Of a stretch of 25,685 nucleotides of DNA, positions 6,347 to 25,685 are shown piece after piece. Each line of letters opens with the position of its first letter. Position 1 is the first letter of the stretch. Both the position numbers and the translations under genes were made by a program. The DNA comes from a virus. The notes beneath the pieces were generated by a model. It was not told the DNA's origin and ran no database searches. It saw only the letters and a program-made list of their open reading frames with translations. The stretch covers positions 1 through 25,685 of the IMG/VR virus record IMGVR_UViG_3300037189_010834. One strand, given 5' to 3'.

Positions 6347-8770
6347 GTGTCTTATACATTATTGGTACAAGGTTCTAAGCCGTTAGGCTATTGGAAACTG
6401 AATGGTACAGGAATTGCTACAGTTGGTTCTAATGCAAATGTAAGTAATGGAATTTATACAACACCTCCATTGATTTCAAATTCTGGATCTTCTCTTTTAG
6501 TCAATAAAACTTCTTCTTCTGTAACTATAAACAATGTTTATGATGGATTTTATAGAAATTTTGATGACACCACTACTCAAATAGAGTTTTGGTTTTCTTT
6601 TAATGGAACATTAAATGGAAATGGTTATCCCGGCAGTTTGAGTTCTGCTTCACAATACTATGTAAATAATATTTTAAAAATTGTAAAAATAATGAATGGT
6701 TCTACAGAGATTGGTTTAATCTATTATGATTACAGTAAAAATACTTTTAGATTTAAAATAAATGGTGTTAACAATACTGAGGCATATATACCTGTTAGAA
6801 ATTTACACACAAATTTTTATATCTTGGCGGGGTTCTCAAATAAAAAAATAACAATAACTGTTAATGGGGAAGATGGAGTGTCTGGTTTTGCTTATGATAT
6901 ATCATCATTTCCTTCGAAAACAACAACTAGTACATATCAAATAGATGGATCTTCAATAAATGATTCTTCTAAAAATTTTGTTGTAAGTGATTTTTCTATT
7001 TATAATTATTTTTTGAATAAAGATCAGCAAAGACGTAGAGTGGTTATAGGTTTTTTGCCAGATAAACCTACGTCAATAACATCTCAACTAGAATCTTCTC
7101 TTTTTAATTTTTATGAAAGAGATTATCAAGTACTCGTAGACAAATATATTACGGGTAATTTGTTTAATTCTGAGGGAATATATAAAAATAATATAATTAT
7201 TGATGAGATTGAGGGAATACAATATAAAAGAATTCCAAAATTTTTTATTAGCGATTTTACTCCTAGTGGTTCAGTAATAATAACTTCTTCTGGCGTTAAA
7301 ATGGCAAATAATGTTACTGCATTACAAATGTCAAAATATGGAAATCTTTTTTCTGGAGAGAGTTATAAAACTATAACTGCTCAAATTTCTGGAGTTGTAG
7401 GTTCTTTAAATACAATATTTTCTTTACCTGAAGTAATTGATAATCAATCAACAATTTATGTATATGCAGCAAGTAATGGTTTTTATTTAAATTCTTATGA
7501 TCCCGTTACTTCGACATCTTCTAATATTTTTACATTATCAACAAATTTAAATAGTTCAAGCGTTTATAATTTTGGTCTATCCATCTGGGGAGAGAATATA
7601 TATTTGTATGGAGCGGGAATAACAGCAAGTGGTACCATAAACAATTTAAAAATAAATCCATATACTTCAATTTATGTAGGCAACAATCCTTATTCTACTT
7701 CTGCAAACAATATTTATATTAAAAATTTAGGAATGAATAACATAAATCAAACAACTTTTTCTGGATATGATTTTACAGAAAATAAAATGTTTATGTCTAG
7801 ATTCAACACAGATTTTTCTGTATCACAAATATCTACATGGATAACCAATATACCTTTATCACATTTCAACTCAGATATAGTCGGTAGTAAAGTTTTTTGG
7901 ACATCGATGGATAATTGTATGGTTCAATATTCACAAGATGGGACTACTTGGTCAAATATTTTTTGTGGAGAACAATTACCTATAAATTATAATACATTAA
8001 ATAATGACATTTTATTAAAAGTAACTGTTCCTTATGAATATGAAATAGAAAATGTTAATCAATCATTTAGTAATTTGAACATAACTCTTTATAGAGACTT
8101 ATCGTTTGTAACTATGGATGGTAAATATTTAATACAACCTTTAACAGATAGTTCTGGTCAACATTCGTATGCCGTTAAGAAAAATCCAGAGCCAATTTTG
8201 AACCGTCTAAATAAATTTGGCCTGCATTTTGATAGATCTTCTGGTACTAGCGATGGTTATGCTGTCATTACTCCAACGTCTAGTGCTTATCAGCCATACG
8301 CTATAGATTTTTGGTTTAAAGCAGATGCTTGGCCCCAAAATCAAAATTATATTTTAGATCAAGCAAATGGTGGCGGTTCTCATCCATCTATGTATATTGA
8401 ACAAAATACCGGACATCTAAGATATGGTTCTGGAAGCGTATATGTAAATGGAATTTATTATCAAGACAATAGCAATAGTTTTAGTGCATCAACTGGTCAG
8501 TATTATCACTTTTTTTATGATTTTGGTGGTCCAGCCGCTAGTTCAATTTATATAAATGGAAAATATCAAAATTCTTCATTTCATACACATGCTTCATATG
8601 GATATATTAATTTGTGGAATAGTCAGGTATCTCCTTCAACAGCATCTAGCAGGTATCTACATTTTATTTCAAATAATATACAGGTAATAAATGATACTCC
8701 AAGTCAATTATGGCAATCAAGTTATTATAACGATGCGTTAACAAGTGTTTCTTCTTATAAAATTGGTTAG
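6347..8770 (+). CDS. Large LamG/jelly-roll domain protein, probable adhesin or virion fibre
   Basis: 807 residues starting at GTG. The N-terminus (LLVQGSKPLGYWKLNG) and the segment ending FSIYNYFLNKDQQRRR near residue 225 have the form of a LamG/concanavalin-like lectin domain. A second such domain occupies about 620-790 (YAIDFWFKADAWPQNQNYIL ... SIYINGKYQ). The middle is Ser/Asn/Tyr-rich beta sequence. These folds bind glycans in phage tip and fibre proteins. The gene is markedly more AT-rich than the reductase before it and full of Asn/Lys/Tyr codons, consistent with fast divergence or separate origin. It sits upstream of the portal gene, so it could be a head fibre, or an adsorption protein displaced from the tail module. 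Its stop codon is followed in the same frame by the next gene. Confidence 0.7.
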   Translation: MSYTLLVQGSKPLGYWKLNGTGIATVGSNANVSNGIYTTPPLISNSGSSLLVNKTSSSVTINNVYDGFYRNFDDTTTQIEFWFSFNGTLNGNGYPGSLSSASQYYVNNILKIVKIMNGSTEIGLIYYDYSKNTFRFKINGVNNTEAYIPVRNLHTNFYILAGFSNKKITITVNGEDGVSGFAYDISSFPSKTTTSTYQIDGSSINDSSKNFVVSDFSIYNYFLNKDQQRRRVVIGFLPDKPTSITSQLESSLFNFYERDYQVLVDKYITGNLFNSEGIYKNNIIIDEIEGIQYKRIPKFFISDFTPSGSVIITSSGVKMANNVTALQMSKYGNLFSGESYKTITAQISGVVGSLNTIFSLPEVIDNQSTIYVYAASNGFYLNSYDPVTSTSSNIFTLSTNLNSSSVYNFGLSIWGENIYLYGAGITASGTINNLKINPYTSIYVGNNPYSTSANNIYIKNLGMNNINQTTFSGYDFTENKMFMSRFNTDFSVSQISTWITNIPLSHFNSDIVGSKVFWTSMDNCMVQYSQDGTTWSNIFCGEQLPINYNTLNNDILLKVTVPYEYEIENVNQSFSNLNITLYRDLSFVTMDGKYLIQPLTDSSGQHSYAVKKNPEPILNRLNKFGLHFDRSSGTSDGYAVITPTSSAYQPYAIDFWFKADAWPQNQNYILDQANGGGSHPSMYIEQNTGHLRYGSGSVYVNGIYYQDNSNSFSASTGQYYHFFYDFGGPAASSIYINGKYQNSSFHTHASYGYINLWNSQVSPSTASSRYLHFISNNIQVINDTPSQLWQSSYYNDALTSVSSYKIG

Positions 8771-18074: not shown

Positions 18075-18376
18075 ACCTCGTTGCCTTAGAAGCAGAGGTC
18101 TTCCTTCTAGGCAGATGGAAGAACTACGAGGAACTTGAAGAAAGTCTTTGTTTTGAAGAATTAATAGCAACCATAAATGCTATTAGAGAAAGAGAAAATA
18201 AAGATAGGAAATTCCTTGCCGCCCTTCAAGGGATCGACATGGATGAGGTTGAATTGGAACAGCAGGAAGCAAAACAGGATGTATTAACCTTAACTGGTCG
18301 TCAGGCCGCTGAGTCGGGTTTTGGCATTGGCATGGGTCTTGGCTTCATGAATGTTGATGGTGCTGATCAAGTATGA
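17736..18376 (+). CDS. Tail assembly chaperone frameshift fusion (GT-like), -1 at CCCAAAT
   Basis: 213 residues if the ribosome slips -1 at C-CCA-AAT (18035-18041). The -1 frame is closed by TGA at 18032-18034 and open from 18035 to the TGA at 18374-18376, so the shift must happen between 18035 and the 0-frame stop at 18072. The extension reads SRGNGSSWDELDLVALEAEV and then a charged helix (KNYEELEESLCFEELIATIN). There is no start codon with a ribosome site at the head of this part, which supports a fusion. In lambda and many other phages the long form recruits the tail tube to the tape measure. The final codon overlaps the tape measure start (ATGA). Confidence 0.82.
18035..18041 (+). promoter_or_regulatory. 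Programmed -1 frameshift slippery site CCCAAAT
   Basis: XXXYYYZ heptamer in the correct phase (CCA and AAT in frame 0, re-paired as CCC and AAA in frame -1). It is the only canonical heptamer inside the 18035-18072 window that the downstream frame allows. Confidence 0.8.
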
Positions 18377-21300
18377 GTCAACGTATAGATTTTGAAATAG
18401 TTGGTAATGCTAATTTTGCTGCAATTTATGCTCAATTAGATAAACTTAAAGTTTCTATTGCTAGCCTTAACAATCAAAGTATTGGCGCTGGTTTTACCAA
18501 AGAACTTCAAGCCGGTCTTAAAAATGCTGAAAATTCTTTTCTAACCACTGTTAATTCTTTAAGAGGTATGCAGGTTGAAACGGTAAGAGTTTCAGATGCT
18601 ACCGGACGTTTAACAGAACAATTCGTAAAGGGTAAATTTACTACTTCTCAATATTTTGATATTTGGAAAAATCGTTCTAAAGAAACTATCCCTTACCTTA
18701 ATATTATTGCTCAAGCGCAAGCAAAAATTTCTGAGTCTTTTGTAGTTCCTAGTGCTGCTAGGTCTGGGTATGCTCAAGTAATTACTGATATGGGTTCTGT
18801 TGCTCAAAAGAGTGCTGTAGCAACAATTCAACAACAGGCTTATAACACAGCAATGATGGATGCAAGTAATAAAATCATTAATTTTGGTAAGAATACTCAG
18901 TGGTCCGGTCGTCAGTTGATGGTTGGTTTCACCGTACCACTAGCCGCCGCTGCTGCGGGCCTTGCAAATATGTATTATCAAGTTGATAAGAATATGCAAA
19001 TGCTTCAGCGTACTTATGGTGTTGGCGGTGCTGCTGGACAAGCATTTACTAAGGCTCTTCCTTCACAGGCGGAACTTGATAAAATTAAAACTCAAGTTCA
19101 ACAAATTAGTCAGGAAATGGCTAATATGTATGGGCAGAGCGCCCAAGAAACTACATCGGTTGCAGCGGCACTTTCTGCTGCTGGTTATACACAAAATCAA
19201 TTAGTTAATTTAACTAAAACAGTTTCCCAAGCGATGGTACTAGGTGAAACAGATATGCAATCGGCAATGAAAGCCACCATTTCTCTCCAGACTGCTTACA
19301 GGTTAAGCACAAGCCAAACTGCCGATGCTATGAACTTTTTTAGTGCTGCTCAAGCAGCAACTAGCACAACAATGAAAGATTTGATTGATGCTATACCTCG
19401 CGTGGGACCAATTGTACAAAATTTGGGTGGAACGTATAAAGATACCGTCGCCTTTCTTGTAGCCATGAAAGAAGGCGGTGTCGGAGCATCAGATGGTGCT
19501 AACGCGCTTAAAAACTCTTTGCAAAGACTAATTGTTCCAACAAAAGCAGCAGTCGCATCGCTCATGTCATATGGAATTGATTTACCAAAAATTGTAAAAG
19601 ATAATACTGGCAATGTTGTTGGAATGGTTGAATCTCTTCAAATGGCGCTGGATAAATTACCGGCACTTGCACGTCAGCAAGCGATCACAGAATTATTTGG
19701 TAAATTCCAAGCAGCACGTATCACCGCCCTGCTTGATAATTTTAATAGAACTGGTACACAGTCAGCAAAAGTTATGAACATGATGAGCCTTAGTTCTAAA
19801 GAACTTACAGACATCGCTAATCAACAAACAAATATACTTCAACAGTCTAGCGCGGGTAAATTTAAAATAGCCGTAGAGAGCCTTAAAACATCCTTGTTGC
19901 CTATTGGACAAGCATTCTTAGACTTAGCAACAAAAGTTATAAATGCTGCAACATCAATTGTAGATATTTTTCAAAAACTTGGTCCACTTAAATATATAAT
20001 TGGCGGGATTTTCGGTGGCGCAGCAATTCTTGGCCCCATTATCATGTTCTCTGGCCTCATGGCGAACCTTGTTGGACAAGTGTTTAAACTTACAAATATG
20101 ATGAGAATGTTCAAAGAAGGGGCAAGTTCGGGTGGTGGATGGACTAATCCAATTAAGGCAATACAAAGCGGAGTTTCAGGACTTGCTAATTACTTTGCGG
20201 AAATTGATAAAGCACAATTAGCATCATCTAAATTAAGTGAAACTGTAAGTTCTCAAATGGGAACTCAGGCTAAGATGCTTGATTTATTCAATGTTGCCCT
20301 AACTAGATATACACAAAACATTGAAAGACTTATGCAGATTGAACGTGGTGGCATCCCGCCAATTATGGGTGGTCCCGGCAGTCCCGGTGGACCTACTGGA
20401 GGAAACCCAATTGGTGGTGGACCTTACATAGTCCCATCGGGTGGCGGTGCGAGCGGAGCAAGAACTCCTGAACAAATTCTTGCTAATACTGGTTATGTAA
20501 ACACTTTCTTTGTGAGGGGTAAAGATGAAAGTGGCAAAGATATTAGGCGCAACCTTTTAGAGCAGACAGATCTTGGTCCAGTAGGAGGAGTTACTTTCTC
20601 TCACGGTTTAGCGAATGAAATAACTCAAAATATTATGGGTAGCCGTTCTATAGTGCCCGGAATATTTACAAATACTCCACAAGGTAAAGAAATTAATTTA
20701 AAAAATCAAGATCAAACATTACCTCTTATTCCCGCACACATGATGACAGATGACATCATCGCAGCAGTATTGAAAGAATTAGGAATAACGCCTCAAGGAC
20801 CACTTTCAGCATATGGTAAAGAAGTAAGTTCTATAACTGCTGTAAAACAGTCCGGCGATCAATTAGCACAATTAAGGGCTTTAAAACAAATAGAGGCTAG
20901 TAATCCGAATGCTGTTACAGAATTTAAATCTATAGCGAAAAATGGTGCAAGTTATGAAGATGCAGATAATTGGTTTAAACAACAGTTAGGTCCAGATCAA
21001 TGGGCAGATATGCGTCGAAGGGCTATGTCTGATGTAAAGGTTGCATATGATCAAGCATTTAGTTCTGTTGAAGCATCAATTAAGTCTTCTGGTCGTACCG
21101 GGGTAGGTCCAGAAAACTTTAGGGCAATTGCTACTAATTTTTATACATCAACTTCTCACCTGTTTTTAGAGCAATATCGCGGTATGAGTATGGCAATGCA
21201 GAATGCTCTTACGGTTACTTCAACTCAGACTGGAGAAAAACTTGCCGATACCATAAGAGATTCTATGAAAAGCACACTTGCCCCAGCAATGATTAATAGT

Positions 21301-24300
21301 CTAGCCGCATCTTCTAATGGAATCGAATTTCTTGGTAATGCATATCAGGAATTGGGAAATACTGTAAAAAATACTACTCAAAAAATGGCTGCGGAGGCGA
21401 CGGCCCTTGCAGAAAAAATTAATTTGATTGCTGCTGAATCAATAGTAGGCGCGTCGGGCGCAGTTTTAGTTCCCGGTGGAATTGGAAAATCTACTATAAA
21501 AAATGTTCCGGGAATTAAAAATTTCCCTAGATTTGCTAATGGCGGTAAAATTTATGGACCGGGTGGCCCTAAAGACGATCTTATTCCAGCAATGCTTTCT
21601 AACGGAGAATATGTTGTTAATGCAGCGGCAGTAAGTCAATACGGCAATGGTTTCTTAGATGCAATAAATACTCGCAAATTTGCTGATGGTGGAAGGGTAG
21701 CAAATACTAATTATGAAAACGCTCCTGCTCAAATTTCACCAACAACAAATCAATTTTTAACTACTCCAAAGTATGCTTCAGGGAATATGGTTCAGGATGT
21801 TTCCCGCGATATGCTTTATAACCCATCAATGGGTTATGCTAATGGCGGGAATGTGAGAAGAAAAGATTCCTTTACTCATCACAGACAGTTTGAGTATCAT
21901 CCTCGTAAATATAAATATGATTTAGGTGGTATTGCTAAGTTTCCTCTTGGTGGTTCTAATATACCTAATCCTCCTGCTTCAAATAATGTTTTAACTACAA
22001 GTCCAGCCGCTTGGAAGGAAGCCATTGCAGTTTCTCCACCAAGTTACGGAGAAAGTTTAATTGATGCTTTTGGTTTAACGGACTCTTTAGGTAGAAGGTT
22101 GACCTTTGAACAATTGCAGAATGCCTCTGTTGCTGAATTAGAAATATTAATGACTCATGCAAGTCATATACGTCAATTAAAAGATATATCATGGTTAGAT
22201 CCAGAAGAGGCAAAAAAAAGACAAGACGACCTTAAGAAAAGAATTGAAAATTGGGAAGAAGAAGGAAAAGTAGGCTCTAAGCCACAGTTATCAGAATTAG
22301 ATAATGCATTTGTGTTAGATGCAGCAATGATGACTCCATATCAACATAATATGCTAATGACAGATTTGGAATATACTTTAAAAGATAATAGCCCAAAAAC
22401 TCAAGAGATAAGAGATTTAATTGAAAGTAAAAAAGATGGTGTATATAAGCCTATGCTTGATGCAATTGCTCGCGGAGGACAGTTCTCTGCTGATCAAGCG
22501 GGATTTTTAGAGGCTCAAAGCCTTGCACGATTTATATCAGATGTTGAAATGCATCAAAAAACGGGAAAGGAAATGTTTATTGGTCAAAGGCTTACAAATT
22601 TAAGTTCTCAGTCACAAGCAATTCCTGCAACAAAACAATTTTTAGACAATATGCTTTCAACTGGAGAAGATTTATTCATTGAAAGATCAAAAGCATTAGT
22701 TCATTATGCAAATATAATTAAATTTTCTGGAACAGATTCTGTCGCAGGGGAATCAAACTTAAAATTCCCATCAGAAATGTTTAGTCTTGAAGAAGAATTA
22801 GCCCTTTCAAAAATTTCTAATCCAAATTCTCGTACTTTCTCTATGGTCGGTCGCCCAGCAGATATAATTAATGGAACTGGATTTGAAAATGCTAAAACAG
22901 TAATTTCAATAAGTCCCAAAATTTTATCAGAAGAGATAGATATTAAAAATAATTATCTTAAAGATGCGTTAAATAAAATAAAATCAGTACTAAAGTTTGA
23001 TTTTACGCCTGCTGCAAACGGTGGTTTTATTTCTAAATTCTCTACAGGTAATTTTGTGGGAGGATATTCAGAAGAAGCATTAAATGGATTATATAATTCC
23101 ATAGGTCGTACCGCCCCGGATTTTGTTAAATCAATGACAGAAACTCAATTGCAAGAATATTTGTTATCTCCTGCAAGTCCTTTTTATGGAAATAAGGTGG
23201 AAGAATTTTTTGCTACTCGTTCTGCGGGAGAAGTTGGAAGAGTAGACAAAAACTTTAAAGAAGGTTGGAAAGATTTAGGATTAAATAGACAATATGATGA
23301 TAACTATGATCCTACAAGAGATTATTCATCTAATAAGTTTTATTCTGACATGGGTGAGCAACCACAAATAGTTACTTCTACTCAAAATTTATCTAAGGAT
23401 GAAGCGAGGCTTGCTGACATTGCATATTGGCACGCTCGCGGCTACAAAGAGAGGTGGAGCGAACTTTCTGATAAAGAAATTGATTCTGGGTCAAAGAGTT
23501 TAAGAGATCATCTTTCAGAAAAAGGATCAACTGTTAGAGTCTGGCGTTCTGTTGTCACTGGTCCTCAGCAGAGTGAAAAATCTCCCGGTAGTTTTGGTAT
23601 GTCTGATGCGATTTTAAGTGAAACTGAGGCAGGACAAAGATTCTTATCTTTTTCGCGTGAACCCAGAATTCCTCAAAATTTTGCTGAAGAAGATAAAAAA
23701 GGTTATACTCCAAGAATTATTGAGATGGACGTTCCTGTAAGTGCGGTAGTGGGAATAGATAAAATGAATTATGATTCTGTTGATTTTAGAGAACAGGAAG
23801 TAATTATTGATTCTAATAAATTGGCAGGAGTCCCGGTTAGATATATTACTCCTACAGGATTATCAAAATTAGGTAGAAAAACAGAAGATGATCTTGGGGT
23901 TGAAAGAAGAAATCCTTTATATCAATCCGTTTCAGTAGAGCCTAATTCTGGAAAAAGACAAGATGCTTCGTTCCTTGAAATGATTGCGCCTAGAAAAGAT
24001 CCCACTGCAATAATTGATGATATAGCCCAACGTAGAAACTGGGCTTTGGAGGCTTATAACGGAAACTTTGATAATGTCCCAGCATTCCTTCAACAGGGAA
24101 TGGACAAAATGTCAATGGACGAAAGGATAAACAAATTATTTGGTATTTCCCAAGCAGAACTAGATTTTGCTGAAAAATATCTCATGGAAAGGTATAGAGC
24201 GTCGGATCTGCAGTCCTTGGTAGATAATAAAACTATTATTTATGGTCCACATGTTGAAACTATTGATGCAATTGCTCAAAGAAAAGGAATTTTCAGATCA

Positions 24301-25685
24301 GGAAATGATAAAAATGCTTTAAAAAATATATATGTACGTCCTTTGCCTATTACTGAAACTCCCGGCCTAGCCTCCAGCGTTTGGTCAGAAAAAAGAATTA
24401 CAGGTCCAACACCCGAATTTGTTAAAAATAACCCCTTTGGATTTAAACCACCTAAACCAATAATGCCTAAAATTGCAAATGGCGGTCCCGTTAAACTTGC
24501 AAATGGTGGTGTTCCTGCTCTAGTTTCAAACGGTGAGTACTTCTTTGGCCCAGATACTGTTAAGCATTATGGTAAAGGGTTTATGGATAATCTTAATGCT
24601 GGTAAACTTGCTACCGGAGGTCTTGCTGGTGGAAGGATTGTTGGTCCCGGCGGTCCTAAAGACGATTTAATTCCTATGACATTACCAGAGCATTCTTATA
24701 TTATTAATGCTGCTGCTACTCAAAAAATTGGTACCCCAACCCTTGATGCAATTAATTCTAAGAAGTTTTCTACAGGTGGAATTCTTAAATTCCCAACAGG
24801 TGGTGGAGTACCATCTAGAATGGTTGCTCCCGGTCATCAAATATCAATGGACCTTCCTAGCGAGGTTCTAACAGGACTTGATCGTACCGGCGGGATAAGT
24901 AATATGTTTAATCCAAACGTAAAATTACCATCCCGTATTCAGGATTTTGAAGTTTCTCAACAACGTAGAGCAAATGTGGAACAATCAGTATTTGGAATTC
25001 CAACAACCGCTCCGTGGACAGAAAGACCAGTGTATGGCTATCTGCGTCGTGAAGGCGAATACATGGGTGCTGCTTATGGTAATGTTACGATTGACATAGA
25101 GCCAAGAAGAGGCCAGAAAGTTACAACTACTGCAGATGATTCATTTAAGATTAATACTTCTCTTACTCCAGCAGAAACATTAAGTCCCGCTCATACACAA
25201 CCAGAACAGGCAAAAGTGCCGGGAATTGCCCCAGAAGGTGGATATCAACCTGCATACAGAGAAGTTCAAATACATGGTGGATCAGTCCCATTAAGTCAAA
25301 TAAAAACAGCCACATACCACTTTGATTCAAATTTTGCCAATTCTCAGGGAACAAAAATTGAAGATCAGGCTAGAGAGGCTTTGCGTTTCTTAGATTGGGC
25401 AGAATCTCAAGGTATCCGTGCCAACGTAGAATTCACAAGAGGTTTTAATCATGACACTGGCATCATGGATAGAAGTTTCTTGGGCAGAGATGAATTACAG
25501 AAATATGCAGAACATGGTTGGTCTGCTGCACCTGTTGCAACAACTGAAATCAAACCTGTAGAAAGAAAGCCTGTTCCAGAAAATGTTGTCCTTGCAAATG
25601 GTGGTGTTGCTAAACTTGCTGATGGTGGAGTTCCTTCTCAAAATTGGAAATTGGGCCTTCACAATATTCCATATGATGTAGATAA
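18373..25685 (+). CDS. Giant tape measure protein with embedded enzyme-like domains (3' end outside window)
   Basis: Open from the ATG at 18373 to the window edge, at least 2,437 residues. Residues 1-170 are helical. GRQLMVGFTVPLAAAAAGLA (180-198) and the TP901-type core at about 250-450 (SVAAALSAAGYTQNQL, FFSAAQAATSTTMKDLIDAI) follow. A membrane span lies at 541-565, then a Gly/Pro linker at 658-698. Beyond that come a helical segment (700-1045), module GPGGPKDDLIPAMLSNGEYV (1062), an unrecognised globular part (1200-1550), and an ADP-ribosyltransferase-like domain (about 1675-1830) with R1722, S1759/S1761 and E1807/E1809. Then come a second GPGGPKDDLIP (2091) and a DUF3626-like domain (about 2213-2375). 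ANGG/ADGG linkers separate modules. The tape measure sets tail length and enters the host envelope at infection. It overlaps the chaperone stop by ATGA. Confidence 0.88.
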   Translation, partial: MSQRIDFEIVGNANFAAIYAQLDKLKVSIASLNNQSIGAGFTKELQAGLKNAENSFLTTVNSLRGMQVETVRVSDATGRLTEQFVKGKFTTSQYFDIWKNRSKETIPYLNIIAQAQAKISESFVVPSAARSGYAQVITDMGSVAQKSAVATIQQQAYNTAMMDASNKIINFGKNTQWSGRQLMVGFTVPLAAAAAGLANMYYQVDKNMQMLQRTYGVGGAAGQAFTKALPSQAELDKIKTQVQQISQEMANMYGQSAQETTSVAAALSAAGYTQNQLVNLTKTVSQAMVLGETDMQSAMKATISLQTAYRLSTSQTADAMNFFSAAQAATSTTMKDLIDAIPRVGPIVQNLGGTYKDTVAFLVAMKEGGVGASDGANALKNSLQRLIVPTKAAVASLMSYGIDLPKIVKDNTGNVVGMVESLQMALDKLPALARQQAITELFGKFQAARITALLDNFNRTGTQSAKVMNMMSLSSKELTDIANQQTNILQQSSAGKFKIAVESLKTSLLPIGQAFLDLATKVINAATSIVDIFQKLGPLKYIIGGIFGGAAILGPIIMFSGLMANLVGQVFKLTNMMRMFKEGASSGGGWTNPIKAIQSGVSGLANYFAEIDKAQLASSKLSETVSSQMGTQAKMLDLFNVALTRYTQNIERLMQIERGGIPPIMGGPGSPGGPTGGNPIGGGPYIVPSGGGASGARTPEQILANTGYVNTFFVRGKDESGKDIRRNLLEQTDLGPVGGVTFSHGLANEITQNIMGSRSIVPGIFTNTPQGKEINLKNQDQTLPLIPAHMMTDDIIAAVLKELGITPQGPLSAYGKEVSSITAVKQSGDQLAQLRALKQIEASNPNAVTEFKSIAKNGASYEDADNWFKQQLGPDQWADMRRRAMSDVKVAYDQAFSSVEASIKSSGRTGVGPENFRAIATNFYTSTSHLFLEQYRGMSMAMQNALTVTSTQTGEKLADTIRDSMKSTLAPAMINSLAASSNGIEFLGNAYQELGNTVKNTTQKMAAEATALAEKINLIAAESIVGASGAVLVPGGIGKSTIKNVPGIKNFPRFANGGKIYGPGGPKDDLIPAMLSNGEYVVNAAAVSQYGNGFLDAINTRKFADGGRVANTNYENAPAQISPTTNQFLTTPKYASGNMVQDVSRDMLYNPSMGYANGGNVRRKDSFTHHRQFEYHPRKYKYDLGGIAKFPLGGSNIPNPPASNNVLTTSPAAWKEAIAVSPPSYGESLIDAFGLTDSLGRRLTFEQLQNASVAELEILMTHASHIRQLKDISWLDPEEAKKRQDDLKKRIENWEEEGKVGSKPQLSELDNAFVLDAAMMTPYQHNMLMTDLEYTLKDNSPKTQEIRDLIESKKDGVYKPMLDAIARGGQFSADQAGFLEAQSLARFISDVEMHQKTGKEMFIGQRLTNLSSQSQAIPATKQFLDNMLSTGEDLFIERSKALVHYANIIKFSGTDSVAGESNLKFPSEMFSLEEELALSKISNPNSRTFSMVGRPADIINGTGFENAKTVISISPKILSEEIDIKNNYLKDALNKIKSVLKFDFTPAANGGFISKFSTGNFVGGYSEEALNGLYNSIGRTAPDFVKSMTETQLQEYLLSPASPFYGNKVEEFFATRSAGEVGRVDKNFKEGWKDLGLNRQYDDNYDPTRDYSSNKFYSDMGEQPQIVTSTQNLSKDEARLADIAYWHARGYKERWSELSDKEIDSGSKSLRDHLSEKGSTVRVWRSVVTGPQQSEKSPGSFGMSDAILSETEAGQRFLSFSREPRIPQNFAEEDKKGYTPRIIEMDVPVSAVVGIDKMNYDSVDFREQEVIIDSNKLAGVPVRYITPTGLSKLGRKTEDDLGVERRNPLYQSVSVEPNSGKRQDASFLEMIAPRKDPTAIIDDIAQRRNWALEAYNGNFDNVPAFLQQGMDKMSMDERINKLFGISQAELDFAEKYLMERYRASDLQSLVDNKTIIYGPHVETIDAIAQRKGIFRSGNDKNALKNIYVRPLPITETPGLASSVWSEKRITGPTPEFVKNNPFGFKPPKPIMPKIANGGPVKLANGGVPALVSNGEYFFGPDTVKHYGKGFMDNLNAGKLATGGLAGGRIVGPGGPKDDLIPMTLPEHSYIINAAATQKIGTPTLDAINSKKFSTGGILKFPTGGGVPSRMVAPGHQISMDLPSEVLTGLDRTGGISNMFNPNVKLPSRIQDFEVSQQRRANVEQSVFGIPTTAPWTERPVYGYLRREGEYMGAAYGNVTIDIEPRRGQKVTTTADDSFKINTSLTPAETLSPAHTQPEQAKVPGIAPEGGYQPAYREVQIHGGSVPLSQIKTATYHFDSNFANSQGTKIEDQAREALRFLDWAESQGIRANVEFTRGFNHDTGIMDRSFLGRDELQKYAEHGWSAAPVATTEIKPVERKPVPENVVLANGGVAKLADGGVPSQNWKLGLHNIPYDVD
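21526..21700 (+). repeat. Tape measure module repeat, copy 1 (ANGG ... GPGGPKDDLIP ... ADGG)
   Basis: It encodes FANGGKIYGPGGPKDDLIPA, then MLSNGEYVVNAAA, DAINTRKFADGG. It is repeated with changes at 24616-24810 (GPGGPKDDLIPMTLPEHSYI, INAAA, DAINSKKFSTGG) and partly at 24475-24620 (VPALVSNGEYFF). Such a module is common in tape measure proteins of several phage groups; its role is unknown. Confidence 0.7.
24616..24810 (+). repeat. Tape measure module repeat, copy 2
   Basis: Protein-level repeat of 21526-21700; the DNA has diverged mainly at third codon positions, so the protein is under selection. It is preceded by a partial third copy that includes LVSNGEYFFG at about 24526. Confidence 0.7.

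Follow-up and report, generated by a model that had tools for sequence, protein, structure and literature searches.

Inside the tape measure protein (TMP) of a small family of tailed phages lies a conserved domain that we interpret as a probably active ADP-ribosyltransferase (ART) cassette of the R-S-E class. The explanation that fits best, and that we hold with fair confidence, is that this cassette is released with the TMP to modify targets in the host. We recognized the domain in a linear IMG/VR virus record of 25,685 bases, the whole of which we call the window, and on seven other IMG/VR contigs (L002, L003, L004, L006, L008, L015 and L024), in all seven within a TMP open reading frame (ORF). 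Neither the enzyme class nor delivery with the virion is new as a concept; what is new is the tape measure as the carrier.

The last gene of the window encodes a tape measure protein

The window ends in an ORF of 2437 codons (18373-25683, plus strand) whose 3′ end is open at the contig end. This ORF matches the tape-measure profiles PF10145 (E = 2e-28) and phrog_10030 (E = 7e-104) and its place in the gene order, downstream of portal, protease, capsid, adaptor and Ig-domain genes, fits a TMP, which is expected after the tail tube genes. Both matches bear out the preliminary description of this DNA, which had taken the gene for that of a TMP. Searches of Pfam and PHROGs gave no match to a MuF (head morphogenesis) domain in the ORF, which sets the protein apart from the MuF-ART fusions. 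Upstream of it are genes for a glycosyltransferase, ribonucleotide reductase, portal, head protease, virion/capsid protein, adaptor and Ig-domain protein. Just upstream of the portal region, at the place where a terminase would be expected, an 807-amino-acid ORF with a GTG start (6347-8770) has no PHROG match at E ≤ 0.001.

Relatives of the TMP belong mostly to Streptomyces, Gordonia and Mycobacterium phages. As most of these relatives come from actinobacterial phages, and as two WhiB genes are found in the L004 record, the phage family is likely to infect actinobacteria.

A conserved domain with an invariant R-S-E motif

The preliminary description had placed an ART-like domain with a full R-S-E triad at 23398-23880, which translates to TMP residues 1676-1836. 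The residues it named are found at the positions it gave: VRVWRSV starts at residue 1721, RFLSFS at 1756 and FREQEV at 1805. Using an eight-sequence alignment, AlphaFold models and fold searches, we set the limits of the ART-like core at residues 1672-1836 (23386-23880). Within this core, R1722-V-W-R1725 (23536-23547) is on strand 1, S1759-F-S1761 (23647-23655) provides the SxS of strand 2 and is followed by a helix and the invariant F1770, and strand 5 opens with the ExE, E1807-Q-E1809 (23791-23799); the core and its motifs are all encoded on the plus strand. R1725 is more likely than R1722 to be the catalytic, NAD-binding Arg, because it corresponds to the Arg of the 'LYR' motif, as in T4 ModA/ModB.

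By itself, the triad tells little. A loose pattern, R-x20..60-SxS-x30..60-ExE, occurs at seven places in the window TMP and in 57% of 500 shuffled copies, for which reason we rejected the motif alone as evidence. A stricter pattern (hydrophobic-R, S[FMY]S, F/A, ExE plus two hydrophobics), drawn up after the family alignment was known, was present in 0 of 500 shuffles. The bare motif is within chance, and the evidence for an ART lies in homology, that is, in the comparison across relatives.

As a single-sequence query, the domain alone retrieved nothing from Pfam, PHROGs, PDB sequences, 50,697 phage records or viral contigs. L002, L003 and L004 were found by searching with the N-terminal region of the TMP, and L006, L008, L015 and L024 were added by profile searches; two final scans for further relatives gave none beyond these seven. 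With three relatives as queries, the phage records yielded no credible match; the plasmids held no relative of the domain, and a profile scan of genome contigs returned no cellular one. Searches of Pfam, NCBIfam, PHROGs and PDB sequences likewise gave no match, and no curated family covers the domain.

The window domain shares 33-45% identity with its seven relatives. Each record carries one copy, which the family profile detects at E values of 1e-64 to 1e-78. R1722, R1725, S1759, S1761, E1807 and E1809 are invariant in 8/8 sequences. These six motif residues are among the 28 invariant positions of the 147 gap-free columns in the core alignment, and the probability that five named residues would all fall among 28 invariant columns of 147 by chance is ∼2e-4. 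The dN/dS ratios of two close pairs, 0.16 for L002-L003 and 0.22 for L008-L015, indicate that selection on the domain is purifying. Judged by these sequence comparisons, the segment is a real conserved domain, beyond chance. A stop or frameshift artefact was ruled out, the frame being open in all eight records.

Predicted structure points to an ART fold

The core that defines R-S-E enzymes carries its Arg, Ser and Glu on strands 1, 2 and 5, respectively (PMC7827354). We modelled the domain twice with AlphaFold. The window domain, modelled with seven sequences, reached a mean pLDDT of 60 (mostly 70-87 in the core); this model was poor overall, and fold searches started from it were weak. The L003 domain, modelled with eight sequences, reached a mean pLDDT of 77 and a pTM of 0.77. 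In both models, helices precede six core strands, of which the first carries R, the second carries SxS and the fifth begins with ExE; the L003 model has an additional short strand between strands 1 and 2. The Arg, SxS and E/Q-x-E of the alignment thus occupy, in both models, the strands (1, 2 and 5) that mark the R-S-E class.

A search of the PDB with the L003 model returned ART-superfamily structures at all of ranks 1-15 (Vis, C3, PARPs, KptA/Tpt1 and others), and such structures made up 38 of the top 50 matches by our hand count. No single PDB match reached E ≤ 0.001, the best E value being 0.018, and TM-scores were about 0.25-0.33. The ART fold predicted in the preliminary description is supported by the strand order and by the dominance of ARTs among the matches, but not by any individually significant match. 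An hhalign comparison with a T4 ModA/ModB alignment that we built covered 33 columns, with the SxS in register (P = 0.005; probability only 7%). A profile search against ART families, the other check proposed earlier, came back empty: no Pfam ART family (ADPrib_exo_Tox, ART and others) matched the domain at E ≤ 10. Pfam gives no such match for T4 ModA either, so its blank here means little and leaves room for membership of the superfamily.

One canonical feature is missing, namely the ARTT aromatic at position 3 of X-X-aromatic-X-X-E/Q-X-E, which is replaced by D1804 in the window and by Lys in L002, L003, L008 and L015. Genuine ARTs without this aromatic exist (PMC7827354), so its loss is not strictly defining. 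The ExE suggests that the target may be arginine, a reading tempered by the missing ARTT aromatic. In sum, the earlier ART reading stands as regards the invariant triad, the ART strand order and the ART-led fold matches, and is qualified by the missing aromatic. The domain very likely has an ART fold; it is a probable R-S-E-class ART and is likely to be catalytically active.

Repeats delimit the ART block within the tape measure

The ART block has three parts: a conserved helical lead (residues 1590-1620, 23140-23232; 'YL.SP.S.Y.G..VEEFFA.R.AG' in the alignments), the ART core and, after the core in 8/8 TMPs, a conserved trailing segment (residues 1837-2012, 23881-24408). An invariant 'DI' lies close to the start of the trailing segment and a PG..S..[WYF]S motif close to its end; the segment may belong to the enzyme or serve in targeting as a domain of its own. 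In all eight TMPs the block is preceded by an ∼50-amino-acid repeat, 'GPGGPxDDxIPAxLSNGEYVVNAxAVxxYGxxFxDxIN'. It starts after the first of these NGEYVV repeats and, wherever the record extends that far, ends before the next one. In the window, the upstream boundary is the first repeat, 'GPGGPKDDLIPAMLSNGEYVVNAAAV..YG..FLDAIN..KFADGG' (21544-21693), and the downstream boundary is formed by the second and third NGEYVV-type repeats (24475-24786); lead, trailing segment and repeats are all on the plus strand. The repeat, with its core IPAMLSNGEYVVNAAAV, occurs between cassettes in one to five copies per TMP, in the window and in all related TMPs.

In complete relatives, the ART domain occupies the middle part of the TMP, with a tape-like stretch on either side. 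Long relatives have the second tape-like stretch after the ART block and then C-terminal blocks, which in L003, L004 and L008 contain cell-wall enzymes (M23, SLT_3, M15-like or NlpC/P60-like).

Closer to its C-terminus, the window TMP has a second domain (residues 2207-2396, 24991-25560) with RP.YG.L, VT...DS and Y.E.Q motifs, which it has in common with L024 (9690-10253). Weak tblastn matches to this domain (E = 0.08-0.3) include phage proteins annotated DUF3626; identity with DUF3626 (PF12294) was not supported, as the Pfam profile gave no match. A match to the same DUF3626-like domain is found in L017 (Actinomycetia phage DSL-LC01), in the gene after the portal (19110-20510), and a few genes further on lies a 9.9-kb gene of unknown function (21742-31611). 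The second domain could be another ART-like domain. As a tentative extension, these TMPs may be polymorphic effector carriers, in which NGEYVV repeats bound the cassettes, the ART sits mid-tape and travels unfolded to fold in the host, wall-degrading cassettes are C-terminal, and the window's subfamily has a second possible ART-like domain.

Proposed role of the ART cassette and alternative explanations

Tape measures exit the tail before the DNA, and the tail lumen is ∼40 Å wide (PMC8718954). A point absent from the preliminary description is that a folded domain in the middle of a TMP is hard to fit into such a lumen; the ART cannot simply ride folded in the tail and must be unfolded or extended there, or be cut from the TMP. 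Unfolded or extended storage has likewise been proposed for Sle1 (PMC13277306). In the mechanism that we propose, the TMP would hold the ART extended or unfolded in the tail, or would free it by cleavage. At infection, the ART would exit with the TMP and fold inside the host, where it would use NAD to modify at least one host target as the DNA enters. Its job would be akin to that of T4 Alt or of MuF-ART fusions, but would be done by way of a tail protein. Action of the ART in the infected host after ejection appears somewhat likely to us; we infer delivery into the host, as we do the use of NAD, the target, the time of action and passage into the cytoplasm.

The main rival to this mechanism is that an active ART works in the producing cell. 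It would be excised from the TMP ahead of tail assembly or in the course of it, or would act on the growing chain; it would modify host or phage proteins late in infection, and the tail would never deliver it. TMPs are known to undergo proteolytic trimming, as lambda gpH does, and the ART block is flanked by repeats on both sides, as a removable cassette would be. The tape also continues past the block in L002, L003, L004, L006 and L008, and a folded domain would not fit into the lumen alongside the TMP. However, we identified no protease or cleavage site, and the cell-wall hydrolases at the C-termini of three of these TMPs make most sense at entry, so that we consider it unlikely that the ART is cut out and works in the producing cell.

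A structural or binding module that has kept the ART fold without catalysis, e.g. as a spacer or a nucleotide-binding tail scaffold, would account for the missing ARTT aromatic and for the low scores of the individual fold matches. Inactive ART-like domains usually lose one residue of the triad, whereas R, SxS and ExE are invariant here though most of the domain has diverged; we judge a non-catalytic role distinctly improbable. Least credible is a coincidence in which an unrelated alpha/beta domain has R, SxS and ExE spaced as in ARTs: chance often produces the loose motif and there is no family or sequence match, but the motif is invariant in eight divergent sequences, two AlphaFold models have the ART strand order, ARTs dominate the fold matches, and the ModA/ModB match is in register.

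If release of an active ART with the TMP is the correct reading, a question becomes open to direct test: whether the tail stores TMP-borne enzyme domains in unfolded form, and what their final location is.

Comparison with known systems

We found no report of an ART in a tape measure in the open-access literature. The best fold matches of the predicted domain are Vis, C3-type and PARP structures (PDB 4y1w, 2c8g, 4x52), from which it differs in biology and at about 10-16% identity (E about 0.02-0.1). Among phage enzymes, T4 Alt, ModA and ModB are ARTs that act on host RNA polymerase and other proteins. ModA and ModB resemble the window domain in the R-S-E order with LYR, SxS, A/F helix and ExE, and the profile match is in register at the SxS; homology over the whole length is not detectable, the hhalign match being confined to 33 columns. 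The Mod proteins are made after infection, whereas the window domain is an integral section of a tail protein, the TMP.

There is precedent for phage ARTs carried in the virion (PMC5576092, PMC7302621, PMC9206674). T4 Alt is present in the virion and injected (PMC9206674); it is a separate head protein, in contrast to the ART inside the TMP described here. Of the T4 proteins, the sequence comparison took in ModA and ModB. Closer in design are the MuF-ART and MuF-VIP2 proteins of Microbacterium phage clusters EH and EJ, AXL1 gp16 and the MuF toxins of Firmicutes prophages (PMC7302621, PMC9206674, PMC5576092), in which an ART is fused to a structural protein of the virion and delivery with the DNA has been proposed. 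Their carrier is a portal-associated head protein, whereas the ART described here is internal to a TMP and has no Pfam ART match. Those phage ARTs for which entry along with the DNA is known are head-derived, and a TMP-borne ART may take a tail route instead.

TMPs with enzymatic cargo such as M23 or muramidase domains, e.g. Basilisk gp47 (PMC6145125), are modular in the same way, the relatives found here bearing M23, SLT_3, NlpC/P60-like and M15-like domains. That known cargo attacks the cell wall, whereas an ART would use NAD and its site of action would for this reason most likely be cytoplasmic. In the sections considered here, the reports on Sle1 and Tme of actinobacterial contractile injection systems (PMC13277306, PMC11126660) describe a tape-measure-like carrier whose variable effector domain acts in cells; these are cargo of contractile injection systems with other effector domains, and no ART is described in those sections. 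If a TMP does bear an ART, tail rulers can carry host-modifying enzymes into the cytoplasm, which would link them to the TMP-like effectors of contractile injection systems.
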